In this document: positions 18,165-61,161 of the stretch, piece after piece
How positions within the stretch are numbered: position 1 is the first letter of the stretch
Layout of the letters: each line of letters starts with the position of its first letter
NCBI GenBank assembly: GCA_013204105.1
Contig: JABMOM010000040.1
Coordinates: forward strand, 1 to 64,000
From: Flavobacteriales bacterium
GTDB lineage: Bacteria; Bacteroidota; Bacteroidia; Flavobacteriales_G; Salibacteraceae
Direction of reading: 5' to 3'
Length of the DNA stretch: 64,000 nt
Position numbers and translations under genes: made by a program
Notes under the pieces: generated by a model
What the model saw: only the letters and a program-made list of their open reading frames with translations
What the model was told of the DNA's origin: nothing
The model's database searches: none

Positions 18165-18193
18165 CAAATGTAGGCGAAATGTCAGCGCAACAA
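18165..18193 (-). promoter_or_regulatory. ychF promoter
   Basis: On the minus strand TTG (18193-18191), an 18-base spacer and TACATTTG (18172-18165). The -7 ends 18 bases before the ychF ATG. The -33 part falls inside the 3-prime end of the neighbouring T9SS gene. Confidence 0.5.
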
Positions 18194-20437
18194 TGTCAGG
18201 TTATCTCTGACCTCTATCACCGGCAGATCATTGCAGGTAGTTTCTGCTTGCAGTAGATAGAAATAAGTGCCGTTTGGAGCAGGACTTCCGTTGGGCATAG
18301 CTCCATCCCACCCGTTATTCATGAAGGCAGATTCAAAGAGTAAGCTTCCCCATCGGTTGAACACGGTCAATCGGCAGCTCGTGACGATCGAAGGGTCTTG
18401 CACTTCCAATCGCAAAACGTCATTCACCCCATCAGAGTTGGGCGTTAAAACATTGCCCACCACAAAGAAGTCATCCGGACTCAAAGAGCATGAAGACACA
18501 TAGATAGAATCCCTATAAGAGCATCCGCCCAATGAGACCTCCGCAATCACAAACCCTGTATCACTCACCACGATGGACGACGCAACCTCTCCGGTATTCC
18601 AGCGCATTTCGGTCCATTGGGGTTCTGGGATTACATTCACTTCTTGTCCAGCACAAAGCACAATGTCATCTCCAAGCTCAAACACCGGCGTGGTACTCAA
18701 CACTAATTCCACGGCGTCTGTAAAGGTGCAGAACGCACTTTCTACGGTGACACTGTATATGTCACTTTCGTTGACGACGATTGAAGCGGTTGTGTCACCA
18801 TTCGACCATTGATACTTCCAAAATTCGTTCGTCGGCGCCGAAAGCGTTGTGCTCACTTCATCGCAAAGGAGTAGAAATGTATCGGTCAACTTGAATGATT
18901 CAACCCTAAAAACCCCCGTATCCGCGTCCGAACACCATTCATTGCTGGTCATCAACCACCATGTCCCAGAAGAGTCCACGAGGAGACTACTGACCGTATC
19001 ACCGGTATTCCAATTCAACTGGCCGTCACCCGAAACAGCTGCTTCAATGATCGATGGTCCGCACAACGTTGTGTCCTGCGGAAGAACCACGGATACTGGA
19101 CGAAAGCGCACATCAATACTGTCCTCTAAAACACAATCTTGCAGGGTTAACACGACGGAATACAGACCGTCCTCCGCAATAGTTATTGATTCCGTAGTAT
19201 CGCCTGTATTCCAGAGCGTCGTTCCATGTGGATTGTATACGCTCAAAGACAGTTCCCCTTCGCATAGCACCGTATCCACCCAGTCGCTGTTGATGTAGGC
19301 CATATCTATAAAAACATAGTCCGTATCGATGCAAACTCCTGAGCTCGCTACCAAAGAATAATTGCCAGCCGTGTCAATCGTAATGTTCGGAGTGGTGTCT
19401 CCCGTATTCCACAGATAGAATTCCGCGCCAACTGGCCCCTCAATGGTAAAGCTTGATGCGCAAATGCTGGTATCAGAAAGGAGGTCAAGTACGAAGGGGA
19501 ATATATTGACGTCGACCGAATCAAAGGCAGTATCACACCCCAAGATCTTACGCACCACATAGGTTGTAGAATCCAAAGGAGAAGCCCAGGGAGCATTAGA
19601 AATAGAATCACTCAAACCCGCTGATGGAGACCACAGGTAGTCAACCGAAGCATCACCGGCATAGAGCTGAACCGAATCTCCCGGACAAAGCAGGAAGGCA
19701 GTGAGATTATTCGTTAGCGCGCCAGCAGCGACTGGTCCACAAAAGCCTTGCTCATTAAAGCCCCCTCCAGTCGTCCCCAGAAAACCCCAATGCACCAAGT
19801 TATCACCATTGAACACATCGTCGATCAGGTCGACCTCTAAAGAAACACGGAGCGAACAGTCTAGGTACACCCGCAGAATATCCGTATTGGGATTCCATGT
19901 CACGCGCAGACCGTGCGTCTCACCATCTTCCACGTTTCCTCCACTAGGTAAAGCCGACACAGGCCCAGCTAGGGAGTTAGAAGCGGTGTGGTCTACAGGT
20001 CCATTCCTGAATATGCCAATATGATCTTCGACCGGGTCGCCGAAATCACCATTCTGCCATGTATCAATTTCAATCCCCAATGAATTCGAAGTAAATCCGC
20101 TGCCCGAAAACCCTATCGTCCCTCCAGAACTACCAATCAGCGCGCCCGTCAATTCACCGCGTAAAACAAACACGATGCCGTCTGCACCATTATCATTATC
20201 GCCAAGCCAGACGTCAAAACTGAGGTCGAACGATTGATTAAGGTTGACGGGGGTTTGTTCATACACATATCCTCCAGCAGCCGTTGTTAGACCTGTGAGC
20301 TGATAGCAATCAGCACCTAAAGTGTCGGTCGTGCCTCCAAATATGATTTGTGCCGACAATGGAAATGCAGCACAAATCAGCAAACAAGAAAGGAGAAAGC
20401 TTTTAGGATGCACCGGATATTTCTTACGTAAGTCCAT
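18182..20437 (-). CDS. L-type lectin-like protein, T9SS type B
   Basis: A 751-aa secreted protein: signal peptide (about 1-30, PLSAQ), a legume/L-type lectin-like domain (about 32-245, with FDLSFDVWLGDNDNGADGIVFVLRG, LGIEIDTWQNGDFGDPVEDHIGIFRNG and LRVTWNPNTDILRVYLDC) and six Ig-like modules marked by W(N/S)xG(D/E). The last 95 residues are a type B tail (VLTPNSDGVNDVL, FNRWGSLLFES, ending VRDNLTLLR). It probably binds carbohydrate at the surface. The C-terminal half (18182-about 19447) aligns module by module with the neighbouring gene at 20511, while the N-terminal parts differ. Confidence 0.9.
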   Translation of the reverse strand: MDLRKKYPVHPKSFLLSCLLICAAFPLSAQIIFGGTTDTLGADCYQLTGLTTAAGGYVYEQTPVNLNQSFDLSFDVWLGDNDNGADGIVFVLRGELTGALIGSSGGTIGFSGSGFTSNSLGIEIDTWQNGDFGDPVEDHIGIFRNGPVDHTASNSLAGPVSALPSGGNVEDGETHGLRVTWNPNTDILRVYLDCSLRVSLEVDLIDDVFNGDNLVHWGFLGTTGGGFNEQGFCGPVAAGALTNNLTAFLLCPGDSVQLYAGDASVDYLWSPSAGLSDSISNAPWASPLDSTTYVVRKILGCDTAFDSVDVNIFPFVLDLLSDTSICASSFTIEGPVGAEFYLWNTGDTTPNITIDTAGNYSLVASSGVCIDTDYVFIDMAYINSDWVDTVLCEGELSLSVYNPHGTTLWNTGDTTESITIAEDGLYSVVLTLQDCVLEDSIDVRFRPVSVVLPQDTTLCGPSIIEAAVSGDGQLNWNTGDTVSSLLVDSSGTWWLMTSNEWCSDADTGVFRVESFKLTDTFLLLCDEVSTTLSAPTNEFWKYQWSNGDTTASIVVNESDIYSVTVESAFCTFTDAVELVLSTTPVFELGDDIVLCAGQEVNVIPEPQWTEMRWNTGEVASSIVVSDTGFVIAEVSLGGCSYRDSIYVSSCSLSPDDFFVVGNVLTPNSDGVNDVLRLEVQDPSIVTSCRLTVFNRWGSLLFESAFMNNGWDGAMPNGSPAPNGTYFYLLQAETTCNDLPVIEVRDNLTLLR

Positions 20438-20510
20438 TTCTAAACCGCGCTAAAAATAAGGAATCTGCAGACTTTTGGTAATGAATACTATTTCAAAGGG
20501 AGGAGTGACC

Positions 20511-23500
20511 CTATCTAAGAATGGTCACGTGATCCTTGACCTCAATGATGGGAATGTCTGTGCAGATGGTTGTGGCCCGCAATAGATAGTAGTACGTACC
20601 TTCTTCGGCCATTTCACCGGACGGCAAGCGGCCATCCCAATCGTGGTTGATGTATTCCGACTCGAAGAGAAGCACACCCCAACGATTGTAAACGAGTAAC
20701 TCATAATCAGTGACCAGGTTCTTATTGACAACGTTCAAGCCCAGTTGGTCGTTGATGCCGTCATAATTGGGAGTGATGACATTCGGAATGATGAAAAATG
20801 AATCCGGGTCAAGCCTCCTCCACGTCACGTTGATGCTATCCCTTCCTTCACAACCATTGAATGACATAGAGGCATAGATCAGTCCGGAATCGCTCACAAG
20901 TATTGACCTTCCTGTATCACCATTGTACCAACGCACAGAGGACCATACTGAATCCACCGTCACGCGCAGTTCTTCTCCGTCGCAAATGATCTGATCCTCT
21001 CCCAAACTGAATTTCGGAGCGTTCGCAAAGGTGATGCGGAGCGAATCTGCTAAGGCACAGTGCTCGGTAGTCACGGTCACGTAATAAATGCCTGTGCTGT
21101 AGACCGTAGTGGTACGGGTTGAATCCCCGGTACTCCAGGTAAACGAGGAGCCCGAAGGTCCAGGCGCCACGAGGTAATGGCTGTCTCGATCGCACACCAA
21201 CTCCTCCGTGATGGAAAAACTCAAGGTCTCCAAGCTTACATTGATCGTATCGGTATCTGCACAGAGGTCACTTCGGCCAATCACCCACAAGGTCATGGAG
21301 GTGTCCACGCAGGTTTCGGAAACAGAATCCCCTGTACTCCATAGGTAAGACACCAAGGTCGGGTCAAAGGCGGAGAACACTCCAGGAGTACAAATCACCG
21401 TGTCGGGACCTAGGTCCACGAGCGTTGGACTGAGATCCACATGAATCGTGTCGACCGTTGTGCAAAATCCATTTTCCAGCCGCACCCAGTACGTACCTTC
21501 TTCGGTTATCGAAATCGATGTTGTGGTATCTCCCGTACTCCAAGTAATCGTTCCTTCATCATTAACCACCGACAGTTCAACCGACTCCGCGCAAACGACC
21601 GTGTCGTTTGTCGTAAAATTGGTGTAAGAAACACGCACGTTCACGGTGTCCGTGTCACTGCAAAACTCATTTCCAGCGATCAGAATGTAGTTCCCTGTAT
21701 TTGAAACGAGGGTTGATTGTGTTGTATCGCCCGTATTCCATAGAAAATGCGTTGCCTCATTCGGTCCTTCCAGAAAAAATCCTGGCTCGCAAATTCCCGT
21801 GTCGTTGACCAAGGAGAATTCAAAGGGTGGAATGATCTCGACATCAAAGGTGTCGCCGAAGTTGCCACACGCATTCACCACTTCTACCCAATACGGCCCA
21901 CTCTCGGTCACTTCGATTTGGTTGCCCAAACTTCCATCTGACCATAGGTAAGTTGAATAAGGACTTTCAACGAAAAGCGTTACCGTTTCATTGCAAATCG
22001 CAGAATCCGTGAGTATCTCGATAGAGGAAGTGTCGTAAACCGTAATGATCAACGTAGCTGTATCGCTCAGTACACAGCCTATGGTATCAAAAATGACATA
22101 AAGCACTTCGTATTGCCCTGGCTCGGTGTAGGTATGGGAAGGGGTTTGTGTAAGCGCCGTGTCCCCGTCTCCAAAGTTCCATTGGTGGCTCAAACCTTGG
22201 CTTCCAAAATTGGTAAAGTTGACGGTATGAGGAACGCATCCCACGCTATTCGGAGCTACTTGCGCATTGGCCACAGCCGCCTCAACTTCGAAATCTATCT
22301 TGAATAAGGTAAGGTCATAAGTTCCACCATTTTGGTTTCCAGACCAAGCGTTCGCGGTTTGTGGAAAAGAGAATCCATTGGTGCACGTAGCTTGGTAGAC
22401 CGCCCCTCTTTTGTCGAATCGACTGGTTCCACCATCCACGTGGGAGCCAGCGGTTCCGAAGAATGTCCCGTGGATCAAACTGTCTGCTTCAGGGTTGAGA
22501 ACGATGATGTAAAATCCAGCAGGCGAAGGCTGAACCGCATTGGCCGTCATTTCAAAATTCCCGTTTCCATTGGCGCCGTTTCCTGCTGCATAAATGTTCT
22601 TGCAATTGTCCACCAAGAAGGCAGAATGCGAAAGATTCGCAAAGGTCGACGTCCAATGGATCGAGTCGAGCGTCTTGGAGTACTTCCGGATGTAGCTTCC
22701 TTGATTCGTGCCAGGGGCTGTATAGCGATTGCTATCGGCAACAATACTTCCGCTTGACGTACCCAAAACAAAGATTTCACCGTCCCGGTCAATCTGCAAG
22801 AAAAGTGCACGATCTGCATCGTTCAGCGTAGAGTCGGAGCGGATGAAGGTGCTTTGCAAAATACTTGATCCATCTTCACTCAGACGGGTAATGAATCCAT
22901 CGCTCTGACCGCCATTATAGCCCTCATCTTCTGCTCCAACGGTAGTCGGAAAGCCAGGACTAGCCGTAACTCCAACGACGTAAACCGTTCCGTCCTTGGC
23001 AGGCTTGAGGTTGAAGGCTCCATCGTTGAGTGAATCGCCGAGGTAGGTTCCAAATTCCAGGACCGATAGGTTGTAATTGAGTTTTGCTACATAACCATCT
23101 TGCATCCCGATCCGGTTCGTTGCCCAGGCCGTGCTCGAAACTTGAATAGAATCGCTGGATGTAGTGCTGGCGACGTAAACATTGCTGTAGATATCACAGA
23201 CAACTTCTCCTTTAAAGCTGGCATAAGGAACACCTGAAATGCTATTCGCACCATCGGCACCTTCCCCACCGAGGTAGGTCGAGCCTATGAGGACGTCACC
23301 GCTATCTGAAATGATGGTCAAGCAAATATCGACACCACCGTTGTAGGACGTGTCTACCGCATTGGCAGCAACAGGATAGTCTGTAGAATAAGTCTTTCCG
23401 TAGACTACGACATCGTTGAATCCATTGACAACAATACTGTGCACATACTCTTGGTCTGAGCCCCCTATGTACGTGCTCCAAAGGAGATCACTGGCATCAT

Positions 23501-24407
23501 CGTTCAATTTCGATATGCCAATATCGACGGAGCCTCCGCCGTAATTCATTTGAAATGAACCTGTGTCGGTAGGGTAGCCCTGACCGAAGGGACGGCCACC
23601 CCCGATGATGTTTCCGAATTGATCGAAGGTCGCGCTATGGCCAAAGGTCATGACGGTTGCGCCTATATTGGTCGACCCAATGATGACCGGATCAATGAAT
23701 AGTTTGTAGTCCGAATTATAATTGCCAACGCTGAAATGCACTCGGTTTTCACTTACATCAAAGGCGCAGTCCACTTCGACCTCTTTCCCGTCGATTAGCT
23801 GGTAAGCGTATGGCTGTTGCTCCACGACCCTGAGATTGGGCAATTGTATGTGCAGGTCACCGTCAACCACGCTCAAAGAGCGAATAGCATTGTACTCTAA
23901 GAATACGCTGCGCGGGTCAACACCCGACCCGACCGAATATGTGTATTTCATGTTTCCTTCTTGGAAGGTCCATACCAGGTCAGCTCCAGGCTGTACTTCG
24001 GCATAGTGCAGTTCGTCGAAGATCCCGACGCGACTCGCCCATTTTTTACGATCCTTCCCTAAAAAGAAGTTGGCGTAATCTTTATGTCTGGATTTCAAAT
24101 CAATGGATACAGGAGATGTGGAATTGCCAAAACGTACTTCGTAGGTATGTCCAGTAACATAATGGTCTTCTTCCGGTGCGTCGTGGGTCTGTTCAATGGT
24201 CGCCATATGCACGCTTTCTTCTACGATTGGAATGCGCACTCGATCCTCCATAAACCAAGCGACGCCATTGGCCAAGGAGTACCTGGCAATGAATTTTTCA
24301 TCCCACTGTCCTTTGTTCTCCATATACCCCACGGACTGTGCCAGCAAGCCTGTTGCCAGACCAATTCCCAATCCGAATGAAGTGAATATGTGTTTCCAGT
24401 TTATCAT
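20511..24407 (-). CDS. SBBP-propeller/PKD giant, T9SS type B
   Basis: A 1298-aa secreted protein: signal peptide (MINWKHIFTSFGLGIGLATGLLAQ), a DUF7948-type N-domain (about 25-255, VGYMENKGQWDEKFIARY), SBBP-like propeller repeats (about 265-715, WSTYIGGSDQEYVHSI and LGGEGADGANSI units), one PKD domain (HQWNFGDGDTALTQ), six Ig-like WxTGD modules and a type B tail (VITPNYDGINDQL, YNRWGVLLFES, VKDHVTILR). I chose ATG at 24407 over 24440 because it starts the signal peptide and the upstream Met lies inside a TACATTTG promoter element. Surface function is unknown. It shares its last 425 residues with the neighbour at 18182. Confidence 0.9.
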   Translation of the reverse strand: MINWKHIFTSFGLGIGLATGLLAQSVGYMENKGQWDEKFIARYSLANGVAWFMEDRVRIPIVEESVHMATIEQTHDAPEEDHYVTGHTYEVRFGNSTSPVSIDLKSRHKDYANFFLGKDRKKWASRVGIFDELHYAEVQPGADLVWTFQEGNMKYTYSVGSGVDPRSVFLEYNAIRSLSVVDGDLHIQLPNLRVVEQQPYAYQLIDGKEVEVDCAFDVSENRVHFSVGNYNSDYKLFIDPVIIGSTNIGATVMTFGHSATFDQFGNIIGGGRPFGQGYPTDTGSFQMNYGGGSVDIGISKLNDDASDLLWSTYIGGSDQEYVHSIVVNGFNDVVVYGKTYSTDYPVAANAVDTSYNGGVDICLTIISDSGDVLIGSTYLGGEGADGANSISGVPYASFKGEVVCDIYSNVYVASTTSSDSIQVSSTAWATNRIGMQDGYVAKLNYNLSVLEFGTYLGDSLNDGAFNLKPAKDGTVYVVGVTASPGFPTTVGAEDEGYNGGQSDGFITRLSEDGSSILQSTFIRSDSTLNDADRALFLQIDRDGEIFVLGTSSGSIVADSNRYTAPGTNQGSYIRKYSKTLDSIHWTSTFANLSHSAFLVDNCKNIYAAGNGANGNGNFEMTANAVQPSPAGFYIIVLNPEADSLIHGTFFGTAGSHVDGGTSRFDKRGAVYQATCTNGFSFPQTANAWSGNQNGGTYDLTLFKIDFEVEAAVANAQVAPNSVGCVPHTVNFTNFGSQGLSHQWNFGDGDTALTQTPSHTYTEPGQYEVLYVIFDTIGCVLSDTATLIITVYDTSSIEILTDSAICNETVTLFVESPYSTYLWSDGSLGNQIEVTESGPYWVEVVNACGNFGDTFDVEIIPPFEFSLVNDTGICEPGFFLEGPNEATHFLWNTGDTTQSTLVSNTGNYILIAGNEFCSDTDTVNVRVSYTNFTTNDTVVCAESVELSVVNDEGTITWSTGDTTTSISITEEGTYWVRLENGFCTTVDTIHVDLSPTLVDLGPDTVICTPGVFSAFDPTLVSYLWSTGDSVSETCVDTSMTLWVIGRSDLCADTDTINVSLETLSFSITEELVCDRDSHYLVAPGPSGSSFTWSTGDSTRTTTVYSTGIYYVTVTTEHCALADSLRITFANAPKFSLGEDQIICDGEELRVTVDSVWSSVRWYNGDTGRSILVSDSGLIYASMSFNGCEGRDSINVTWRRLDPDSFFIIPNVITPNYDGINDQLGLNVVNKNLVTDYELLVYNRWGVLLFESEYINHDWDGRLPSGEMAEEGTYYYLLRATTICTDIPIIEVKDHVTILR

Positions 24408-24437
24408 GAGCTCAAGTTCCTTCTTTTCAAGATGTCT

Positions 24438-24445
24438 CAAATGTA
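24438..24445 (-). promoter_or_regulatory. Promoter -7 element TACATTTG
   Basis: A full TAnnTTTG match on the minus strand, 30 bases upstream of the ATG at 24407. It overlaps the alternative Met codon at 24440, which argues against that start. Confidence 0.5.
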
Positions 24446-27778: not shown

Positions 27779-28372
27779 TTAATCTTCCAATTGCGCGAGC
27801 TTCTTATCTAGCAATGCGATTTGTTCACGCTTGCCCGACTGGCGGTTTTCCTTCGAGAAATCAGTCCAATATTGATGGACGTTCAAAAAGGAGATTTGTC
27901 GCTCAATCCAATTGCGTTCTCCGCACAGCACATCCCAAGCGCAGAATTCCTTGTAGAGATATCCCGAAATCTTGTCGTAATCAGTACGCCCCAAATAGTC
28001 CAAGTCCGCATCACAAATGATCTGTTCAAGCTTATTCTTAGGCTTTTGAGGCACTTTGGTGGCCATGATCATTCCGCACACAATTTGAATTTCCTCCATG
28101 GTGTACCCCGCCTCGTACATCATAAAATAGGCAATACCACAGCTGGCTTCTTCGTGATTGGTATAGGCAACCAAATGGCCGCAATCGTGAAATGCTGCTG
28201 CGACCAAAAGCAATTCTAAATCGGTTCCAGAAACTCCTTCTGCGGTACATATTTCCTTGGTCGCCCCAACCACATCTTTCGTGTGATACAAGCCGTGATA
28301 ATAAAGCGTAGGCGCAAGGTCTTTTTCCAGACGTGCGAGTATCCTGCTGCTAATTTCTTCTAATCGATTCAT
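27779..28372 (-). CDS. HD-domain metal phosphohydrolase
   Basis: A 197-aa cytoplasmic HD-superfamily protein. Metal ligands are visible: H30 (LYHTKD), H62-D63 (AAFHDCGH) and D121/D123 (ICDADLDYLG), with NHEEASC and AGYTMEEIQIVCGMIMAT between them. HD enzymes of this size hydrolyse nucleotides or phosphomonoesters; some degrade cyclic nucleotides. Substrate is not known here. Its ATG is one base after the stop of the universal stress gene, and two adenylate cyclases lie just upstream on the same strand, so a role in cyclic nucleotide turnover is a hypothesis. Confidence 0.85.
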   Translation of the reverse strand: MNRLEEISSRILARLEKDLAPTLYYHGLYHTKDVVGATKEICTAEGVSGTDLELLLVAAAFHDCGHLVAYTNHEEASCGIAYFMMYEAGYTMEEIQIVCGMIMATKVPQKPKNKLEQIICDADLDYLGRTDYDKISGYLYKEFCAWDVLCGERNWIERQISFLNVHQYWTDFSKENRQSGKREQIALLDKKLAQLED

Positions 28373-28373
28373 A

Positions 28374-29165
28374 CTATTTATTTACGCAGAATACCGGGAT
28401 GGCATTATCGTTTAAAATGATTCGTTCTTTGTCCGCATTTCCGAGGATAGCCTTGTCGGAAACCAAAGACATGATTGAAATGAATTGCACGGGCCGCTCC
28501 TTAGCGAACTTCATTATTTGCTTGCCGTAGCCAAAAGAGTATTCAGTAGCCTCTTCGTTCACCACTTCAAATGGTACCCCTAATTTAGTGAATTCCTCCA
28601 CTGCAATGGCCTGATTTCTTTCAATGGCTTCTCCGGGTCCTTCATCGCTCTTGAGAACGGTGTACAACAATACGGTGCTATTGAATAACTTAGAGAGCCT
28701 CGCCGTATCCTGCACTTTTTTGATGAAATCATTGTGCGGCGCCATTGGAAAGAGAATCTCTGTACTTCCATCTTCAGGAATTACACTTTCCTTTTGAACG
28801 ACTAGCGCAGGCACTGGAAGTTGTTGGGTCAAGCTCAATATGTTTGAGCCAAACAAAAATTGCTTAACATCATGTACCCCATGTGTGCCGATAACCACAA
28901 GGTCAAGATCTAGCTCGCCGACTATTCCTGGAACCACCGAAGTAAATTTACCGTAGTGCAACTCCACTTTGTAGTCGATGCCTTTCGTTTTCAGGGAATC
29001 TGCGTACATATCAAAACGCGGAGTCACATCATGGTTAGAGTGCTTTTCAGGTGCGACATGTATGAGCGAAAGCAGGCATTTCTCCTTGAAGGCAATCGAC
29101 TCTGCAAAAGCAACGGAAGTGTGGCACAAATCCGTAAAATCGATCAATACTCCAACGTGTTTCAT
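28374..29165 (-). CDS. Tandem universal stress protein (UspA)
   Basis: A 263-aa protein with two Usp domains (about 1-138 and 142-263). The first keeps the ATP-binding pattern GxxG-x9-G(S/T): GTHG, nine residues, then GSN (about 93-108). The second lacks this motif (IMSLVSDKAILGNADKERI) and probably does not bind nucleotide. Usp proteins act in stress and some mycobacterial members bind cAMP. Here it stands between adenylate cyclase genes and an HD hydrolase gene in one run of minus-strand genes, separated from the cyclase stop by 78 bases. Confidence 0.9.
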   Translation of the reverse strand: MKHVGVLIDFTDLCHTSVAFAESIAFKEKCLLSLIHVAPEKHSNHDVTPRFDMYADSLKTKGIDYKVELHYGKFTSVVPGIVGELDLDLVVIGTHGVHDVKQFLFGSNILSLTQQLPVPALVVQKESVIPEDGSTEILFPMAPHNDFIKKVQDTARLSKLFNSTVLLYTVLKSDEGPGEAIERNQAIAVEEFTKLGVPFEVVNEEATEYSFGYGKQIMKFAKERPVQFISIMSLVSDKAILGNADKERIILNDNAIPVFCVNK

Positions 29166-29243
29166 AGGTGGCTAGGATTTAAGAAGCGGCAATGTACATT
29201 ATGACAAGGCTCGCAGCAATCAAATATCGAATATTCTTAAGTT

Positions 29244-31043
29244 TCAAGCGGTAGCGTCTTGTTGTGATCTATGCACAAACCACATGGTCATCTCCCCTTT
29301 TCCTTTCACATCCATAGCACCTCTTTGCTCGAATGCGAAGCGCTTATCATCCTTTAATAATGCATAGGTTGATTGACTGATGTTCACTTTCCCAACCTCG
29401 CCATGACTTTCCATTCTATGTGCAGTATTTACCGTGTCACCCCATATATCGTACTGAAACTTCTTCACCCCTACGATGCCTGCGACGACATGTCCGGTAT
29501 GAATTCCTACGCGCATTTCGAACGCTCCAGCATTTTTCGCCAGGTTCTGCGTTTTTCTGTTTGTGATGAATGCTTGCATTTCGATTGCCGCCATCAGTGT
29601 GTTACCAGCGGATTCTGGTGACGGAACGGGCAATCCGCCAGCAGCCATATAGGCGTCGCCGATGGTTTTGATCTTTTCAATGCCATAGGTGTCGCAAATG
29701 CCATCAAATGCTTCGAAACATACATTGATCTCTTCTACGAGGTCCTTGGCGTTCAGCTTTTCTGCGGCTTCCGTAAAATGAGCGAAATCCGTAAACAGTA
29801 TGGAGGCGTCTAAAAAGTCACGTGCTTCTGCTTTTCCTTTTGATTTTAATTCTTCGGCTATTTGCTCGGGCAGAATGTTGAGCAATAGATGATCACTGCG
29901 CTTCTTTTCGACTGAAATGCGGTTTCGTTGCCGAAGGAAGAGGATCGCAATCATGAATACGACCAGAAAAGCACCGATAAGAAAATTGCGTGTAATACGC
30001 TCCTGCTTCAGCTCTTCTTCAGCTATGGCATCCTTAACGGCTTGTTCGGCTTGCTTATCCCGCATTGCCTGATCAAATTCAAATTGCCCATTCAATTCCG
30101 CCACTTTTTGCAGCACTTGATCATTGTACATTGAATCTTTGTGCTCACTCAATGTGCGCAGATAGAAATAGGCGCTGTCTGAATTTCCAATGGCAGCAAA
30201 GGCCTTATGCATGGTTGCCTGTGTCTCTCTCAAGTAATATCCACCAGAACCCAGGTCCTCCAAATAAACCAAGGCTGCTCTTCCATGTGTGATGGCCTTT
30301 TGGTATTCTCCTGCCTCCAAATATGCCGTGGACAAGAAGGTGGAAACCGGTCCATACGATTCCTCCTCAATGAGATCTCGATAATTATCCTTCAAGGCCT
30401 GCAAATGCCTGATGGTGCGCTGAGGATCACCTTGATTCGTAAACATTTTACCCCGAAACGATTCAATCTGAACAAGGAAAAAATCGTACCTATCTCCTAC
30501 TTCTTCAATGGCGGCCTGGAATCGTTTTTCAGCCTTATCGAATTGCCTCAATTCTGAATAAGACAAGGCAATTAAGTAGTGGACTACGGCAGATCGATAG
30601 GTGCCATAATCACTCGAATCCGATGCGTTTTCTAATTGATCAATCGCCGCTTGATAATTCTTCAAGTCGTGCTGAAGTACTCCGAGTTGCAGGTAACAAT
30701 TCTTCATCCCTTCTCGATCACCCATTTGCGTATAGAGATCCAAGCTTTGCAGGAAGTATTTTGCCGCCAAGTCTAATGACCCTCCTCCCGATAACTCGAT
30801 CGTCCCCATCAACCTCAATGCTTCAGCACGCTGGTCTTCATTCTCAGTGACCATCGCTTGCTCTACATAAATTCTTGCAGAATCTTGCTTCGAATTTTTG
30901 ATGAAGTCATTGGCTCTTTCCAGTAGTCTTTGAACTGTAGCACTATCCGTCTGTGCGATTGCAACAGACGAAGTACCAGCCAACCAAAGGCAGGCAGTCA
31001 AGCCTAGCAGCCACATGCATCTCTTATTCAGCACGGGACGCAT
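29244..31043 (-). CDS. TPR-sensor transmembrane adenylate cyclase 1
   Basis: A 599-aa class III cyclase: signal peptide (about 1-31), periplasmic TPR repeats (about 40-330), one transmembrane helix (about 353-370), a linker SDHLLLNILPEQIAEELK and the catalytic domain (about 405-590). Catalytic residues are complete: metal ligands D419 (LFTDF) and D463 (IGDAYM), purine-selective K459 and D532 (the Lys/Asp pair marks ATP use), N539 and R543 for the transition state. It should turn an outside signal into cAMP. Start may also be the Met at 31016. It overlaps the second cyclase gene by 20 bases. Confidence 0.93.
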   Translation of the reverse strand: MRPVLNKRCMWLLGLTACLWLAGTSSVAIAQTDSATVQRLLERANDFIKNSKQDSARIYVEQAMVTENEDQRAEALRLMGTIELSGGGSLDLAAKYFLQSLDLYTQMGDREGMKNCYLQLGVLQHDLKNYQAAIDQLENASDSSDYGTYRSAVVHYLIALSYSELRQFDKAEKRFQAAIEEVGDRYDFFLVQIESFRGKMFTNQGDPQRTIRHLQALKDNYRDLIEEESYGPVSTFLSTAYLEAGEYQKAITHGRAALVYLEDLGSGGYYLRETQATMHKAFAAIGNSDSAYFYLRTLSEHKDSMYNDQVLQKVAELNGQFEFDQAMRDKQAEQAVKDAIAEEELKQERITRNFLIGAFLVVFMIAILFLRQRNRISVEKKRSDHLLLNILPEQIAEELKSKGKAEARDFLDASILFTDFAHFTEAAEKLNAKDLVEEINVCFEAFDGICDTYGIEKIKTIGDAYMAAGGLPVPSPESAGNTLMAAIEMQAFITNRKTQNLAKNAGAFEMRVGIHTGHVVAGIVGVKKFQYDIWGDTVNTAHRMESHGEVGKVNISQSTYALLKDDKRFAFEQRGAMDVKGKGEMTMWFVHRSQQDATA

Positions 31044-32958
31044 TTTGCGTTACAAACCACATTTCCATCTCACCTTTTCCTTTGGCCTCAATCTTTCCGC
31101 GGGCTTCAAATCCAAATCTTGGATCCTCCTTTACAAGAGCATAGGTCGCTGCGCTGATATTCACCTTGCCTTCAGCACCATATGTTTCCATGCGATGCGC
31201 TGTATTGACTGCATCGCCCCAAATGTCGTATTGAAATTTCTTATCTCCAACAATGCCCGCCACCACCGCACCCGTGTGAATTCCTACCCGCATTTCGAAT
31301 GCTGCCAAACCGAGGGCGTCTCGTTCTAGCTTTCGTTGGACGATAAAATCATGCATTGCCAAAGCCGCGCACACCGTTTGATGAGCTGAATCAGCCGATG
31401 GCTTGGGTAAACCTCCAACGGCCATATAGGCATCGCCAATGGTTTTAATTTTTTCCAGGCCAAGCGCATCTATGATCGCATCAAAGCCTTTGAAGCAAGC
31501 ATCTACTTCTTCCACCAATTCAGAGGGTTTTAATTGAGCCCCAATTTCGGTGAAAGACTTGAAATCCGTAAAAAGGATGGTTGTCTCATCAAATTCTCGT
31601 GCTTCAGCCTTACCATATCGCTTCAACTCATCCGCCACAGATGCAGGAAGAATATTGAGTAAAAGCTTATCGCTTCGGTCTTTCTCACTAGATATACGTC
31701 TTCCCTGAATGAAGAGCACCACAGCAAAGAGTGCCATCAAAGCAAAGGCCGATATCAATCCATTCCGAATCGTTTTTTGATTTTCAATATCGGCGTCTTT
31801 TAACGCTTGATCCTTCATCAAAAGTTCGATTTCCTTTTGCTTTCCTTCCATTTCATAGTCAAAAAGCATTTGTCCTAGCTTTTGATCTACTTCTACAGAA
31901 TAGGCGCTATCCCTTAACTCGAGCAGCAATTGTTGATATTCAAACGCCTTAGCGAGTTCACCTTTTTCAGCCAGCAGGGCTGCCACTCCCTCATAACAAG
32001 ACCTCAAAGTGGCCGAATTGTCGGAGATTTTCTTGGTTGTCTCGATCGCCTTGTAAAACATCTCTTCTGCACGGTCATTTTTTCCTTGAAGTACCAATGC
32101 TTTGCCAATCGCTAGGTATGAAGAAGCGCGTGCGAGGTCTTGGTCTTGCTTGTTGGCTATGAACAAAGCACGTTCGTGAAAAGCAATGGCAGTGTCGACT
32201 TCACCCAATTCCCGATGGGCATTTCCGAGCATATTCAGTACGTGAGGTTCATCAAAGGATCCATGAGAAGCCTTTTTGGAAATGTTCAAATAGTACAATG
32301 CAGAATCCAGCATATCCCTGCTCACGTAAATTCCTCCAAGGTTTAAAGTTGAAGCGCCTATTCCTCTGTCGTATCCAATGGATTGGTCAAGTTGAAGCGC
32401 TTTTAGGTAGGCTGAAATCGCCTTGGATTTGGTTGCTAAATGATCGGAGTGTACGTTACCAATGTTCGTCCAGGCTGTAGCTATCCTCAAGGTATCTCCT
32501 TCCAATTCAGCATACTTCAAAGACTGCAGGTAATAATCGAGCGCCTTGGTATCATTTCCACGGTCATAATAAACGGCCCCCATGTTGTTGTACATATTGG
32601 ACAGTCCCACATTGTGACCAATCTTTTCAAAAATGTCTCGTGCTTCTCCCCAATATTGAATCGCCATTACGTATTCGCCCTGCACATAATACGCAATCCC
32701 AATATGCTTTTTCGCGTAAGCTGCTCCTTCTTCATACCCAATGGATATAGCGAGCTCATAGGATCGGGTGCCAATCTGCATCACACTATCGGTATTGGAT
32801 TCAAAAAATGTTTGGGCCAACTCGTTGAGCAGATCTACCTTACTCTCTTTGTCCGCAGCAGATTGGATTTCGGAGCGAAGACTGTCTTCTACGTTTTGGG
32901 CATATAGCCCCATTCCCATCAACCCTATCAACAGGCAAAGCGCATATTTTCTAATCAT
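31024..32958 (-). CDS. TPR-sensor transmembrane adenylate cyclase 2
   Basis: A 644-aa paralogue of the cyclase next to it with the same plan: signal peptide (MIRKYALCLLIGLMGMGLYAQ), more TPR units (about 25-370), a transmembrane helix (GLISAFALMALFAVVLFI), the linker SDKLLLNILPASVADELK and a class III catalytic domain. LFTDF, EKIKTIGDAYMA, YDIWGDAVNTAHRME repeat every catalytic residue of the first copy, including the ATP-type Lys/Asp pair. ATG at 32958 gives the signal peptide; a start at 33063 would add 35 unrelated residues across the divergent promoter region. It is probably the first gene of the four-gene unit. Confidence 0.93.
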   Translation of the reverse strand: MIRKYALCLLIGLMGMGLYAQNVEDSLRSEIQSAADKESKVDLLNELAQTFFESNTDSVMQIGTRSYELAISIGYEEGAAYAKKHIGIAYYVQGEYVMAIQYWGEARDIFEKIGHNVGLSNMYNNMGAVYYDRGNDTKALDYYLQSLKYAELEGDTLRIATAWTNIGNVHSDHLATKSKAISAYLKALQLDQSIGYDRGIGASTLNLGGIYVSRDMLDSALYYLNISKKASHGSFDEPHVLNMLGNAHRELGEVDTAIAFHERALFIANKQDQDLARASSYLAIGKALVLQGKNDRAEEMFYKAIETTKKISDNSATLRSCYEGVAALLAEKGELAKAFEYQQLLLELRDSAYSVEVDQKLGQMLFDYEMEGKQKEIELLMKDQALKDADIENQKTIRNGLISAFALMALFAVVLFIQGRRISSEKDRSDKLLLNILPASVADELKRYGKAEAREFDETTILFTDFKSFTEIGAQLKPSELVEEVDACFKGFDAIIDALGLEKIKTIGDAYMAVGGLPKPSADSAHQTVCAALAMHDFIVQRKLERDALGLAAFEMRVGIHTGAVVAGIVGDKKFQYDIWGDAVNTAHRMETYGAEGKVNISAATYALVKEDPRFGFEARGKIEAKGKGEMEMWFVTQNASRAE

Positions 32959-33043
32959 CACGTCCGAAAAGGGTTTAGTCAGCTTGAAAAATAAAACTAG
33001 TATTTCATTCCGTGCGCATTCTTGACCACATTTGCCAAATAGA

Positions 33044-34216
33044 ATGCCTTTCTCCCCCCACATAGCACAGACCAGCCCATTCCCAATGGGAATAGAAGTG
33101 GATCGAGCTGAAGGCTGCTACATTTATGACAAGTCTGGTAAGCGTTACCTAGACTTGATCTCTGGCATAGCGGTCACCAACATCGGGCACCGCCATCCGT
33201 ACGTGATTTCTGCGATCAAAGACCAGCTCGATCGTTACCAACACGTGATTCCTTTTGGTGAGTTTTCGCAAGACCCTCAGAATAAGCTGGCCGACAAGCT
33301 CGCATCCTTGCTGCCAAAGACCTTGAACTGCAGCTACTTTGTCAACTCAGGAACGGAAGCCAACGAGGCTGCATTAAAACTCGCGAAGCGCGTGACGGGT
33401 CGTTTTGAGGTTGTCGCCATGCGCGGCGGATACCACGGAGGCACCCATGGATCGTTGAGCGTCAGTGGAAATGAAGTCAAAAAACAAGCCTTCAGGCCCT
33501 TTGTACCTGGAAGCACTTTCGTCGACTTCAATCGGACCGACGACCTGTACGCCATTACCCACAAGACTGCCGCGGTCATCGTTGAACCAGTAATGGGCGA
33601 TGCAGGTGTGCGAATCCCTGCACCAGGATACTTGAAGGCGCTTCGCGCTCGATGCGATGAGACGGGAGCCTTGTTGATCTTTGATGAAATCCAAACGGGC
33701 CTCGGGCGGACTGGAACGCTGTACGCTTTTGAGCGTTTTAATGTGATCCCTGACATCCTCACTACCGCCAAAGCCTTTGGAGGAGGGATGCCGATTGGCG
33801 CCTTTATCAGTTCAAAAGAGAACATGGAGCTGTTGACTCACGACCCCATACTGGGTCATATCACAACTTTTGGTGGGCACCCTGTGTGCTGTGCAGCAGC
33901 GCTGGCCAACTTGGAGGTGTTGACTGATCAGGAACCTTGGTTGGGACTAGTGGTTGAAAAAGGAGAGCTCTTCAAGGAATTGCTAGCACACAAACGCATC
34001 AAAGAAGTGCGACAGATCGGATTGATGTTAGCTGTTGAGTTGGAATCGGCGGAACAAGTGGACACCGTTATCGCTGAGCTTTTGAAACGCGGGATCATCG
34101 GGTTCTACTTCCTCTCTACTCGAAATGCCTTTCGATTGGCACCACCGCTGTGCATTTCGGAGGATGAAATCCGCTGGGCTTCTGCGGAAATACTAGCTGT
34201 GCTTTCGACACTTTAA
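33044..34216 (+). CDS. Class III PLP aminotransferase
   Basis: A 390-aa enzyme of the acetylornithine/ornithine-type aminotransferase family. Visible features are SGIAVTNIGHRHP, the PLP phosphate site NSGTEANEAALKLAKR, GGYHGGTHG, the PLP-ring Asp in LIFDEIQTGLGRTG and the Schiff-base Lys in TTAKAFGGGMPIGAF. Full length. The substrate (acetylornithine, lysine-epsilon, glutamate-semialdehyde-like or other) cannot be told, as no arginine gene is nearby. ATG at 33044 is preferred; TTG at 33032 would add four residues. It is divergent from the cyclase unit with an 85-base gap. Confidence 0.88.
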   Translation: MPFSPHIAQTSPFPMGIEVDRAEGCYIYDKSGKRYLDLISGIAVTNIGHRHPYVISAIKDQLDRYQHVIPFGEFSQDPQNKLADKLASLLPKTLNCSYFVNSGTEANEAALKLAKRVTGRFEVVAMRGGYHGGTHGSLSVSGNEVKKQAFRPFVPGSTFVDFNRTDDLYAITHKTAAVIVEPVMGDAGVRIPAPGYLKALRARCDETGALLIFDEIQTGLGRTGTLYAFERFNVIPDILTTAKAFGGGMPIGAFISSKENMELLTHDPILGHITTFGGHPVCCAAALANLEVLTDQEPWLGLVVEKGELFKELLAHKRIKEVRQIGLMLAVELESAEQVDTVIAELLKRGIIGFYFLSTRNAFRLAPPLCISEDEIRWASAEILAVLSTL

Positions 34217-47728: not shown

Positions 47729-49396
47729 TCATTTCTCTTCGAGTAAGTTTCTGGCACTTTCTAGCGATGCTTGATTCAATGCATTGCCTGAGAACATGCC
47801 TGCGATCTCTTGGATACGCTCCATTTTCTCCAATACACGAAGCCCGGACAAGACCTGCCCATCTGCTTCCCTTTTTGCGATCTGCAAGTGGTGCTCACCC
47901 TTCGCAGCCACGCCTGGTAGGTGTGTAACGGCAATGATTTGCGTATGGGCACTGATAGACCGCATCAACACACCAATCTGCTTGGCGATCTCTCCACTCA
48001 CACCCGTATCGATCTCATCGAAGATCAGGGTTGGTGTACGATCGTTCTCTGCCAAAATACTCTTTAGCGCCAGCATCAATCTGGATACCTCGCCACCCGA
48101 TGCGCTGTCCTTGAGCGGAACCAGGTGCTTGTCGCCATTTGCATCAAACCACATCTCGACGCTCTCGTTCCCGAGTTGGCCTGTCGTTTCCAAAGGCACC
48201 AATCGCACATCGATGGTGGCCTTTTCCATGCCCAACTTGCGCACTTGCTCCATCAGCCGTTTGACGTACAATTCCACCGCGCTTTTTCTCGATTCACTCA
48301 GGGCTTTAGCGCGTTCATTCAAGGCAATCGAAGCAGCGGATACTTTCTCCTCCAGATCCGCTAACTCATCCTCATAGGAAGCAATCCCATCCAATTTGAT
48401 CTGATATTCCTCGCGGACTTCTTTTAAGGCATCCACCGACTGCACCCCATGTTTGTGGAGCAATCGCTGCATCTGGTCGATTTGATCTCTTACCACTTCA
48501 AGCCGCTCCGGGTTGTATTCCACTGCGTTTGCAATGCGCGTGCACTCGCCTTGGAGGTCTTCCAATTCGATTACTGCAGAGACAATGCGCTCGCTCAACT
48601 CTTTCAAAGGATCGGTAAAGCCTTCAATGGCTCGAAGTTCACTTACAACTTTTCGCAGGATGCTTAAGGCAGACTCGCCTCCATCCCCTCCTCCATCCAA
48701 AGCCGCATCCGCTATCGCCAGTGATCGTTGTATATCTTCCGCGTGCTCCAAAGCACTCAGTTCGTTCTCTAATCCATGGAACACTTCAGGATCCAGCTCC
48801 ACGGCAATGAGCTCCTCGAACTGGAATTGAAAGTAGTCCTCATCCTTTCTCACTTGGGCAGCTGCATCCCGCAATTGGTTCAATTGCCTATCCAAGGATC
48901 GGAAAGTTTTAAAAGCATCCGAAAATGCTTCAAACGTCTTTTGATTCCGCGAAAAAAGATCCAATTGGCGCACTTGGTAACTCGGTGTTTGAAGCGATAA
49001 ATTCTCCTGCTGTCCATGCATATCCACCAACGACCCAGAGATCTCCTTCAATACAGAAATGTTGACCGGGCTGTCGTTCACGAAAGCGCGACTCCTTCCG
49101 GAAGAGGTCAATTCCCTCCTGAGAATGACATCAGATAAAACATCTAAGGCCTCTCTATGGAGGACGGCATCGAGCGATTCGTTCTTGTATTCAAACCTTG
49201 CTTCGATCACGCACTTCTCCTCGCCCTTGCGGATCGCATTAAAATTTGCCCGACTTCCGAGGACCAAGCCCAAGGCCTCTAGCAGGATCGATTTTCCCGC
49301 TCCCGTTTCTCCCGTGATCACGGTAAAACCATGTTCCATCGACACCGAAGTGTGACGTATCAAAGCATAGTTTGTGATTTCGAGTTGTTTGAGCAT
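47729..49396 (-). CDS. recN: DNA repair protein RecN
   Basis: A 555-aa SMC-like ATPase: Walker A GETGAGKS (31-38), coiled coils in the middle, Walker B/signature SGGEVSRLMLALKSIL and LIFDEIDTGVSGEIAKQIG near the C-terminus. It gathers broken DNA ends in double-strand-break repair. ATG at 49396 (MLKQLEITNYALI) is the family start; 49483 would add 29 unrelated residues and run through the promoter element at 49418. Confidence 0.97.
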   Translation of the reverse strand: MLKQLEITNYALIRHTSVSMEHGFTVITGETGAGKSILLEALGLVLGSRANFNAIRKGEEKCVIEARFEYKNESLDAVLHREALDVLSDVILRRELTSSGRSRAFVNDSPVNISVLKEISGSLVDMHGQQENLSLQTPSYQVRQLDLFSRNQKTFEAFSDAFKTFRSLDRQLNQLRDAAAQVRKDEDYFQFQFEELIAVELDPEVFHGLENELSALEHAEDIQRSLAIADAALDGGGDGGESALSILRKVVSELRAIEGFTDPLKELSERIVSAVIELEDLQGECTRIANAVEYNPERLEVVRDQIDQMQRLLHKHGVQSVDALKEVREEYQIKLDGIASYEDELADLEEKVSAASIALNERAKALSESRKSAVELYVKRLMEQVRKLGMEKATIDVRLVPLETTGQLGNESVEMWFDANGDKHLVPLKDSASGGEVSRLMLALKSILAENDRTPTLIFDEIDTGVSGEIAKQIGVLMRSISAHTQIIAVTHLPGVAAKGEHHLQIAKREADGQVLSGLRVLEKMERIQEIAGMFSGNALNQASLESARNLLEEK

Positions 49397-49417
49397 AAAG
49401 TTTTGACGTGCGTGTGT

Positions 49418-49425
49418 CAAAGCTA
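49418..49425 (-). promoter_or_regulatory. Promoter -7 element TAGCTTTG
   Basis: A full TAnnTTTG match on the minus strand, 21 bases before recN. It supports the start at 49396. A TTG lies 25 bases upstream, rather far for a -33. Confidence 0.45.
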
Positions 49426-49459
49426 AAAAGCTTGTGAAGCGAACGGACCCCAAAGCGGA

Positions 49460-49467
49460 TAAATTTG
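49460..49467 (+). promoter_or_regulatory. Promoter -7 element TAAATTTG
   Basis: A full TAnnTTTG match ending ten bases before the acyltransferase ATG. A transcript from it would have almost no leader. Confidence 0.45.
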
Positions 49468-49477
49468 CAAACACTTT

Positions 49478-50344
49478 ATGCAAGCCGTAGTACTCCTCCT
49501 CCGCATCATGTCGCTCCTCCCGCTCAACATTCTCTATCTGATTGCTGATGCGCTGGCTTGGGCATTACGCGATCTGTTTCGGTACCGGAAGGAAATAGTC
49601 GAGCTGAACCTTCGTCGTTCATTTCCTGAAAAGAGCAAGGAAGAGCGCAGGGTGATCATGCGTGAGTTCTATACCTATATAGCCGACGTCATGATCGAAA
49701 CGGTCAAGCTTCATTCCATCTCCGTGGAAGCACTCAGAGAGCGCGTCGTTTTCAAGGAACCCCATCTACTGCAGCGACTTGCCGATGATGGAAAGAATGT
49801 CATCTTACTGATGGGGCATTCCGGCAATTGGGAATGGGCAGGTTGTGCAACAGCGATTGAGTTTGGGGTCCATATACTCCCTGTTTACAGAAAGGTAAAA
49901 AATGACCCCATCGATCTCCATTTCAAAGCCTTGCGATCGCGCTTTGGGGCAACGCCAATTTTGGACAAAGAGGCATTTCGATTGATAAAAGGTCATGCTT
50001 CACCACACGCTGTTGCGCTTTTGGCTGATCACACGCCGGGAGCAGGGAAAGGACTATGGATTGAGTTTCTCGATCAGCAAGCACCATTTTACCGGGGAAC
50101 AGAAGTATTGCTCAAGCGATTAGACTATGAAGTGCTCTTTGCACACGTGCGCATAACGGGACGCGGCAGGTATGAAATCCATTTCGAACCGTACAAAGCG
50201 ACGGGTACGAATGATTTTGAGGTAACGAGGGCATTTGTAGAATTCCTAGAACGAGAGATTCATGCCCAGCCGTTCAATTGGTTATGGTCTCATAAGCGTT
50301 GGAAGCACAGAAAACCTGAAAGAGCGATTTCGATCGAACGCTGA
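49478..50344 (+). CDS. Lauroyl/LpxL-type lysophospholipid acyltransferase
   Basis: A 288-aa membrane-bound acyltransferase of the HtrB/LpxL family. An N-terminal helix (about 8-30) is followed by the HX4E catalytic motif in GHSGNWEWAG (His and Glu), then RSRFGATPI, ALLADHTPGAGKGLWIEF and NWLWSHKRWKHR at the C-terminus. It probably adds a secondary acyl chain to lipid A. Full length. Its stop is directly adjacent to the converging DUF4294 gene. Confidence 0.9.
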   Translation: MQAVVLLLRIMSLLPLNILYLIADALAWALRDLFRYRKEIVELNLRRSFPEKSKEERRVIMREFYTYIADVMIETVKLHSISVEALRERVVFKEPHLLQRLADDGKNVILLMGHSGNWEWAGCATAIEFGVHILPVYRKVKNDPIDLHFKALRSRFGATPILDKEAFRLIKGHASPHAVALLADHTPGAGKGLWIEFLDQQAPFYRGTEVLLKRLDYEVLFAHVRITGRGRYEIHFEPYKATGTNDFEVTRAFVEFLEREIHAQPFNWLWSHKRWKHRKPERAISIER

Positions 50345-59315: not shown

Positions 59316-60620
59316 ATGACTAGTAGGTTCCTCTCAGTAATCCTCTTCACACTCCTCAGCTCTTTTCTTTCGGCTCAGGTCGTTCAAAGCGGACCGATGC
59401 CCGGCTACGCATCCATGAATTCAGTCGGTATTTGGCTTCAGCTCAACGACTCTGCAGACGTAAAGATTCGCTATTGGGACCTGGAGCGACCGAACTACAG
59501 ATCCATCGTTCGGCCATCGATACATGATGTAAACGCGACCGAGGTAGCCCAGTTCCATGTAACAGGACTCGAACCCGGCATGGAATACGGATACGAAGTT
59601 TTAATCAACGGGCAGCCTTTTGACGTGGGTCAACCCCTCTCTTTTCACACAGAAGCCTTGTGGCAGTATCGCGAGGATCCTCCTACGACCCGGATCGCCT
59701 TGGGAAGCTGCGCCTTTATCAATGAAGCACCCTACGACAAGCCAGGTGTTCCTTATGGCAGCAACTATCAAATCTTTGACACTATTGCTTCAAAGAATCC
59801 GGATGTCATGCTCTGGTTGGGAAACAACATTTATCTCCGCGACTATGACCTGGGATCCAAGAGCGGCTATTTTCACCGTTATACGCATGCAAGGGCCACT
59901 CCAGCCATGCAGAAACTCCTGCGCAGCGCTCATCACTATGCCATCTGGGACGACAGCGACTTTGGACCCAACAATGCGAATGGCAGTTGGATCCATAAAG
60001 ACTGGGCCTTGGATGCCTTCAAGCTGTTTTGGATGAACCCCTCCTACGGCATTCCTGGACAACATGGCATTACTACAGCATTCGAGTACAATGACGTTGA
60101 CATGTTCCTTTTGGATAACCGATGGAACCGCACTTCAGATAATAACAAGAAGCTGGATGCCCAAATCCTAGGAAAGGAACAAATTGAATGGTTGATCGAA
60201 GCCTTGAAATTCAGCCGCGCGCCTTTTAAGCTGGTGGCAGTTGGCGGACAGGTTCTAAATCCTGCTAAGGTGTTTGAAAACCATGCGCAGTTCGAGGAAG
60301 AACGCGAATACCTCTTATCGAGGATCGTTGAAGAAAAGATCAAGGGCGTTATCTTCCTCAGTGGAGATCGGCAACATACCGAGCTCCGTAAGGCCTCTCG
60401 AGACAACATCACCATTTACGACCTGACGGTGAGTCCACTGACCGCTCAAGTCCAAGAATCGAAGAATGAATCCAGCGAATACCTCGTAGACAAGACCTCT
60501 GTAACCCAACATAATTTTGGGATTTTAGAAATTAGCGGAGAACGTTTGGCTCGCCAGCTCAAAATATCCATTTTTGACAAACAAGGTTCTGAACTTTGGA
60601 CCAAGGTGATCTTTCCTTAA
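59316..60620 (+). CDS. PhoD-like phosphoesterase with altered metal site
   Basis: A 434-aa exported protein (signal MTSRFLSVILFTLLSSFLSAQ; ATG at 59316). A fibronectin-like N-domain (about 25-115) precedes a PhoD-type metallophosphatase domain with RIALGSCAFINEAPYD. The usual PhoD motifs GD-x-x-Y, DDHD and GDRHH are here GN170NIY, DDS204D and GDRQ343H: each carries a substitution at a conserved ligand position (Asp to Asn, His to Ser, His to Gln). The fold is clearly kept. I infer weak or no phosphatase activity, perhaps a binding role. The start lies two codons after a TTG. Confidence 0.85.
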   Translation: MTSRFLSVILFTLLSSFLSAQVVQSGPMPGYASMNSVGIWLQLNDSADVKIRYWDLERPNYRSIVRPSIHDVNATEVAQFHVTGLEPGMEYGYEVLINGQPFDVGQPLSFHTEALWQYREDPPTTRIALGSCAFINEAPYDKPGVPYGSNYQIFDTIASKNPDVMLWLGNNIYLRDYDLGSKSGYFHRYTHARATPAMQKLLRSAHHYAIWDDSDFGPNNANGSWIHKDWALDAFKLFWMNPSYGIPGQHGITTAFEYNDVDMFLLDNRWNRTSDNNKKLDAQILGKEQIEWLIEALKFSRAPFKLVAVGGQVLNPAKVFENHAQFEEEREYLLSRIVEEKIKGVIFLSGDRQHTELRKASRDNITIYDLTVSPLTAQVQESKNESSEYLVDKTSVTQHNFGILEISGERLARQLKISIFDKQGSELWTKVIFP

Positions 60621-60633
60621 AACCATTGCTCGT

Positions 60634-61161
60634 ATGGCGCATTCAAACGGACACAAAACGGCTGATGACATTGTTGTCGAATCTGGAAGAAACTGGACTC
60701 AATGGTACAATGAGTTAGACAGCCCTAAGTTTCGAGGCTCGAGTTGCGATGAGGTAGAAGATATCTTGGTTTACGAATACGGCATTGAGCGAAACTGGGC
60801 ACGAAGGATCACGAATCGTTTCGCCGCCAAGCACAGCTTTCACTCTGGAACAGAAGACCTTCCTTGTTTTGAAATTTCGGTACGTAAAACCTTCGATTAC
60901 CCCATAAACGAAGTCTTCTGGAATGCTTCCCAATGGTTTGAATCAGAGCAGCGCGCTACGGAAACTGAATTGCTCAATGGAAACCTGCTCACCTGTCAAT
61001 GGAAGACCGATCATTCTAAGATCGAAGTGAAATTCCATAAAAAGGGCGAAGGCAAAACCCAGATGATCCTTCAGCACGATCGCATACACAGCCGAATGGA
61101 CGCTGAGATCATGCGCAATTTTTGGAAAGAGAGTTTGCGCGGGATGGTCGAGGCGCTGTAG
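60634..61161 (+). CDS. DUF4287 plus SRPBCC-like protein
   Basis: A 175-aa cytoplasmic protein. Residues 10-75 (ESGRNWTQWYNELDSPKFRGSSCDEVEDILVYEYGIERNWARRI) look like the DUF4287 helical domain, and 80-175 like a START/SRPBCC ligand-binding domain (SVRKTFDYPINEVFWNASQWF, LTCQWKTDHSKIEVKFHKKGEGKTQMILQHDRI). Many SRPBCC proteins bind hydrophobic ligands. It begins 13 bases after the PhoD-like gene and may be cotranscribed. Function is unknown. Confidence 0.65.
   Translation: MAHSNGHKTADDIVVESGRNWTQWYNELDSPKFRGSSCDEVEDILVYEYGIERNWARRITNRFAAKHSFHSGTEDLPCFEISVRKTFDYPINEVFWNASQWFESEQRATETELLNGNLLTCQWKTDHSKIEVKFHKKGEGKTQMILQHDRIHSRMDAEIMRNFWKESLRGMVEAL

Follow-up and report, generated by a model that had tools for sequence, protein, structure and literature searches.

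The PhoD-like gene and its active-site residues

The DNA analysed here (the window) is a stretch of 64,000 nucleotides from an uncultured Flavobacteriales bacterium. An ORF on its forward strand (59316–60620, ATG start) was identified from the ORF list, a Pfam match and the predicted structure as encoding a PhoD-family (PF09423) protein of 434 amino acids with a deficient Fe site; the Pfam match scored 47.9 bits against a gathering cut-off of 27. All features described for this gene lie on the same strand. The protein begins with the segment MTSRFLSVILFTLLSSFLSAQ (59316–59378), which on inspection has a hydrophobic helix and an A-Q end and, judged by eye, looks like a signal peptide for export. 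The predicted model places a helix at residues 2–17 within this segment. It is followed by an N-terminal beta domain with a Pfam match to DUF7800 (residues 24–101; 59385–59618). A gene for an AHSA1/START-like protein (60634–61161, forward strand; Pfam AHSA1 score just below the cut-off) starts 13 bases downstream and is probably co-transcribed with the PhoD gene. This neighbour pair is conserved in most of the genus, and since canonical PhoD also adjoins the AHSA1-like gene, the latter gives no specific clue to function.

The AlphaFold2 model of the protein (pLDDT 92.6, pTM 0.91) had as its best structural matches Bacillus subtilis PhoD (2yeq; Z 34.0, rmsd 2.9, 392 residues) and the kidney bean purple acid phosphatase (PAP; Z 33). 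With a Pfam score over the cut-off and 2yeq as the best match of the predicted structure, both sequence and modelled fold place the protein in the PhoD family. The claim of the first-pass annotation that the fold is otherwise normal was upheld by the same values.

In B. subtilis PhoD the Fe3+ is bound by the ligand set of PAPs, except that Cys180 stands in for one Asp; the CaA ligands are all Asp, the CaB ligands are Asp or Asn, and Asp436 bridges Fe and CaA (PMC4223295). Activity is abolished in the variants C180A, D265A, N271A, N272A and D436A and drastically reduced in D207A and D266A, variants which together cover ligands of each of the three metals (PMC4223295). The Fe of the wheat purple acid phytase is coordinated by Asp174, the bridging Asp201, Tyr204 and His379, and the phosphate touches His259, which is the His of the GNH motif and adjoins the ligand Asn258 (PMC9073318). 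A profile of 58 orthologues of the window protein was found to align to 2yeq (E 1.7e-13), with GDNIY paired to GDYIY, WDDHD to WDDHE and GDRHH to GDVHA.

According to the alignment, the window protein retains Cys132 (59709–59711), the equivalent of the Fe3+ thiolate ligand Cys180 (PMC4223295), which is present in 102 of 102 aligned sequences, and Tyr173 (59832–59834), the equivalent of the tyrosinate Fe3+ ligand. The Asp which bridges Fe3+ and the second metal (PhoD Asp207, the Asp of PAP GDxxY) is replaced by Asn170 (AAC, 59823–59825), and the invariant Fe3+-ligand His of GDxH (wheat phytase PAP His379) by Gln353 (CAA, 60372–60374). The Fe3+ ligand set of Cys, bridging Asp, Tyr and His is incomplete by this alignment, with two of its four members, the bridging Asp and the His, substituted. 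The calcium ligand set (D265, D266, N271, N272/Asp and D436 in PhoD) is complete in the window, being represented by Asp212-Asp213 (59949–59954), equivalent to D265 and D266, by Asn219-Asn220 (59970–59975), equivalent to the CaB ligands N271 and N272 (PMC4223295), and by Asp351 (60366–60368), equivalent to the bridging Asp436. The changes to the metal centre are confined to its Fe half.

The third substitution, Ser214 (AGC, 59955–59957), takes the place of the invariant His after the DD of the PhoD motif WDDHE. As the CaA site of PhoD has Asp ligands only (PMC4223295), this position belongs to the second shell, and from the alignment Ser214 replaces a phosphate-contacting His and not a metal ligand; a metal-binding role for His214 is ruled out by the published calcium sites, which have only Asp at CaA and Asp/Asn at CaB (PMC4223295). 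The wheat phytase variant H229A was also considered as a model for Ser214 and rejected, since His229 lies in another motif and the equivalent residue is His259. The first-pass annotation had described three changed metal ligands, which holds for Asn170 and Gln353 but not for Ser214. Its residue number 170 was correct, while 204 and 343 were ten too low for positions 214 and 353, and the three codons which it had called unambiguous were indeed found as such.

Comparison with known systems places the protein closest to B. subtilis PhoD, with which it shares the fold (VIA-align), the motif order GDxxY / WDDH / GDxH, the Cys subfamily of Fe ligand and the calcium ligands. It differs from that enzyme in having no counterpart of the bridging Asp207 or of the His in GDxH and in WDDH, is 18% identical to it, and ends without a long capping extension such as that described at the C-terminus of Bacillus PhoD. 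The plant PAPs of kidney bean (1kbp), sweet potato (1xzw) and wheat (phytase, 6git) have the same two-domain fold (Z about 28–33) and the same Tyr ligand position. Relative to these, however, the window protein has Cys for Asp at the Fe site, a calcium-type second site, and neither two of the Fe ligands nor the phosphate-contacting His; the PAP ligand set is incomplete, with WDDS instead of GNH and GDRQ instead of GHxH.

The substitutions among relatives and selection on the gene

The three positions were compared with 100 distinct relatives from bacterial genomes. Position 170 is Asp in 99 of these, with a single Val, and positions 214 and 353 are His in all 100, which confirmed the claim that three motif residues differ at once. 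Of the columns with an invariance of 99% or more, three of the eight in the active site are changed in the window, against one of 48 others (R142K; Fisher p = 0.0075). The second His of GDRHH is itself variable, with F, K, S, R or L in many of the relatives, so only the loss of the first, at 353, is meaningful.

The same three residues were found in one other, related and likewise uncultured species of Flavobacteriales (G009, contig CALSRJ010000001), an independent assembly with a PhoD about 94–95% identical to that of the window. Its codons are AAC, AGT and CAA. All 12 of the other tabulated members of the genus and family have GAC/GAT, CAT/CAC and CAT/CAC. The canonical PhoD-like proteins of the genus (G001–G008 and G010–G012) are orthologues with 53–62% identity and, where testable, the same neighbourhood, and all of them keep Asp, His and His at the three sites. 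On a tree of 102 taxa with a total length of 33, all three changes were placed on one stem branch of length 0.38, and only one change, to Val170 in L102, was found elsewhere at these sites; a rough Poisson estimate puts the expectation for three hits on this stem at about 2.5e-7. Degenerate DNA patterns were also searched in 395 genomes of the class. The pattern for WLGNNIY matched only the window genome, G009 and two unrelated reading frames, those for WDDSDFG/WDDSDYG matched only the window genome and G009, and these scans gave no independent Asn170 or Ser214 in another PhoD.

The Val at the bridging-Asp position belongs to a PhoD-like protein of Chlorobiota (L102, 1641–2909; motif GVNVYL) on a contig of 3 kb. 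A near relative (L086) has Asp there, and the Val is an isolated change or an error.

A sequencing or assembly error in the window as the source of the three changes was also considered. The window genome (G000; 3.1 Mb, 96% complete) is fragmented into 46 contigs, and nothing further was found in favour of an error. It is excluded by G009, a different species whose separately made assembly has N, S and Q encoded in part by other synonymous codons, and this explanation is regarded as extremely improbable.

The gene order sucC, a 154-amino-acid protein, msrA, YCII, PhoD, AHSA1-like, Sua5 and S9 peptidase is common to much of the genus. Because this synteny is conserved, the window gene is the vertically inherited resident orthologue of PhoD, converted in place, and not a duplicate freed from selection; a paralogue or horizontal transfer is ruled out by the conserved msrA-YCII-PhoD-AHSA1 order. 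The first-pass annotation had suggested a search for a second active copy, and no other PhoD was found in the window genome (96% complete) or in G009. A PhoX-like gene is present in the window genome (G000:C43:99749-100837, L140) and in all in three of the 13 genomes of the genus; G009 and most other members gave none. Replacement of a lost PhoD activity by PhoX was rejected, as this occurrence follows no pattern. No PhoA was found, and relatives of PF01663 are present. Some genomes of the family (G013, G026 and G031) gave no match to the PhoD gene.

Between the two species with the substitutions, the PhoD genes (433 codons) gave a dN/dS of 0.028 (NG86) or 0.034 (YN00), these values being approximate as dS (1.39 and 1.03, respectively) is near saturation above 1. 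As both species share the three changes, the differences between them postdate the losses by parsimony. The ratio is below that of most of 12 neighbouring genes (0.016–0.10) and as strict as in housekeeping neighbours. In relative terms PhoD also diverged least of the genes in this neighbourhood, with 0.067 between these species against 0.358 for a canonical pair (G007 and G003), compared with 0.033 against 0.044 for sucC. There is no sign of relaxed selection, and the whole fold is under strong purifying selection.

The G009 copy differs by having Ser-Asp in place of Asn219-Asn220 (N219S at the CaB-ligand position) and by the loss of one base at codon 62, which, if genuine, would cut the protein short. 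No stop codon follows in the remaining 371 codons, and the frameshift may be an assembly error. Two frame breaks occur in about 50 kb of this assembly, and the second indel in the same stretch suggests sequencing errors there. This second break is in the G009 orthologue (L118) of the window ORF 47729–49483, the frame of which is split near residue 27.

Possible role of the protein

The window protein is probably a pseudophosphatase of the PhoD fold which arose from the sole copy of the gene and has been kept for binding or scaffolding. On the stem shared by the two species, the Fe3+ part of the trinuclear Fe-Ca-Ca centre would have been lost through Asn170 and Gln353, and on the same branch the phosphate-contacting His would have become Ser214. 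The tyrosinate-Fe3+ centre would then no longer be assembled, nor the nucleophilic (bridging) hydroxide positioned, and the protein is predicted to be dead as a phosphatase or phosphodiesterase. It would still be exported across the inner membrane with the PhoD/PAP fold and part of the calcium ligands. In the simplest case it may have been retained to hold a phosphorylated ligand, its former substrate, without hydrolysis, or possibly to bind calcium and present a surface to a partner; a scaffold role would be paralleled by other proteins of the metallophosphatase fold. One precedent for a structural role is Plasmodium GAP50 (3tgh), a PAP-fold protein described as the glideosome membrane anchor, although it is eukaryotic, membrane-anchored and of an unrelated lineage, matches over 253 residues only (Z 23.4), and has also been reported to have phosphatase activity.

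The features found are those of a pseudoenzyme, with a conserved fold, lost catalytic residues and purifying selection, the inactivity itself being predicted. In favour of a pseudophosphatase is that three invariant residues changed together and are fixed in two independently assembled species. Counting against it are the seven metal-site residues that are kept, including Cys132 and Tyr173, which is more than a pure scaffold needs, the deletion in G009, and a clade known from two species only. Since Asn and Gln are still able to bind metals, the protein may have kept some activity or be active with an altered metal set. The secreted pseudophosphatase proposed in the first-pass annotation is nevertheless the best reading, with two Fe3+ ligands gone and selection strict, although its detail of three lost ligands was partly wrong.

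An active enzyme with a site rebuilt to work without Fe3+ would account for the continuing strict purifying selection and for Cys132, Tyr173, Asp212, Asp213 and Asp351 being unchanged in both species. Such a site might hold calcium or another divalent ion on Cys132, Tyr173, Asn170, Asp212/Asp213, Gln353 and Asp351. The change may have been an adaptation to scarce iron or a new substrate; the intact calcium ligands in the window and the lack of a compensating PhoX in G009 fit with such a rebuilt site. However, the loss of the bridging carboxylate came together with that of the second Fe ligand and of the phosphate-contacting His, the activity of B. subtilis PhoD drops drastically when D207 is replaced by alanine (PMC4223295), and G009 has N219S at the CaB site; an altered-metal enzyme is therefore considered unlikely. 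A PhoD that works without Fe3+, either as a calcium-based phosphoesterase or as a secreted receptor for a phosphorylated ligand bound at the former active site, and that originated in place without duplication, is conceivable though not favoured. It could also be that the enzyme became dispensable, lost catalysis and is now being lost as a gene, with the G009 frameshift as the next step and the genomes of the family in which no match was found as further signs. A decaying gene is difficult to reconcile with a dN/dS of 0.03 after the shared losses, with 371 codons free of stops in G009, or with changed invariant positions that are clustered in the active site and not scattered, and the other indel in the same stretch points to sequencing errors; decay is thus deemed quite improbable.

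The fold family is already known, pseudoenzymes are common and GAP50 provides a structural precedent for the PAP fold; a literature search in a limited library found no paper on a PhoD-like pseudophosphatase. As a marker for the acquisition of phosphate from organic phosphorus by bacteria, PhoD is widespread, and counts of phoD genes are commonly taken as enzyme activity. If the pseudophosphatase reading is true, a sole-copy, strictly conserved PhoD without its iron site would mean that annotation can mislead. The orthologous and syntenic genes within the genus would offer a natural comparison of what a phosphatase fold does without catalysis, which also bears on whether a PhoD can escape the iron requirement.

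Other genes of the window

Within the window, the region 27779–33063 carries genes for an HD-domain protein, a universal stress protein and a TPR-guanylate/adenylate cyclase, all three missing from the syntenic region of G009, where a second, adjacent TPR-cyclase is only partly matched. Judged by this sequence comparison, the region is a lineage-specific insert or a tandem cyclase expansion. Large surface proteins with PKD, thrombospondin C-terminal-like or legume-lectin domains are encoded at 2990–6358 and 18182–24440, and these have CHU_C tails of type IX secretion.
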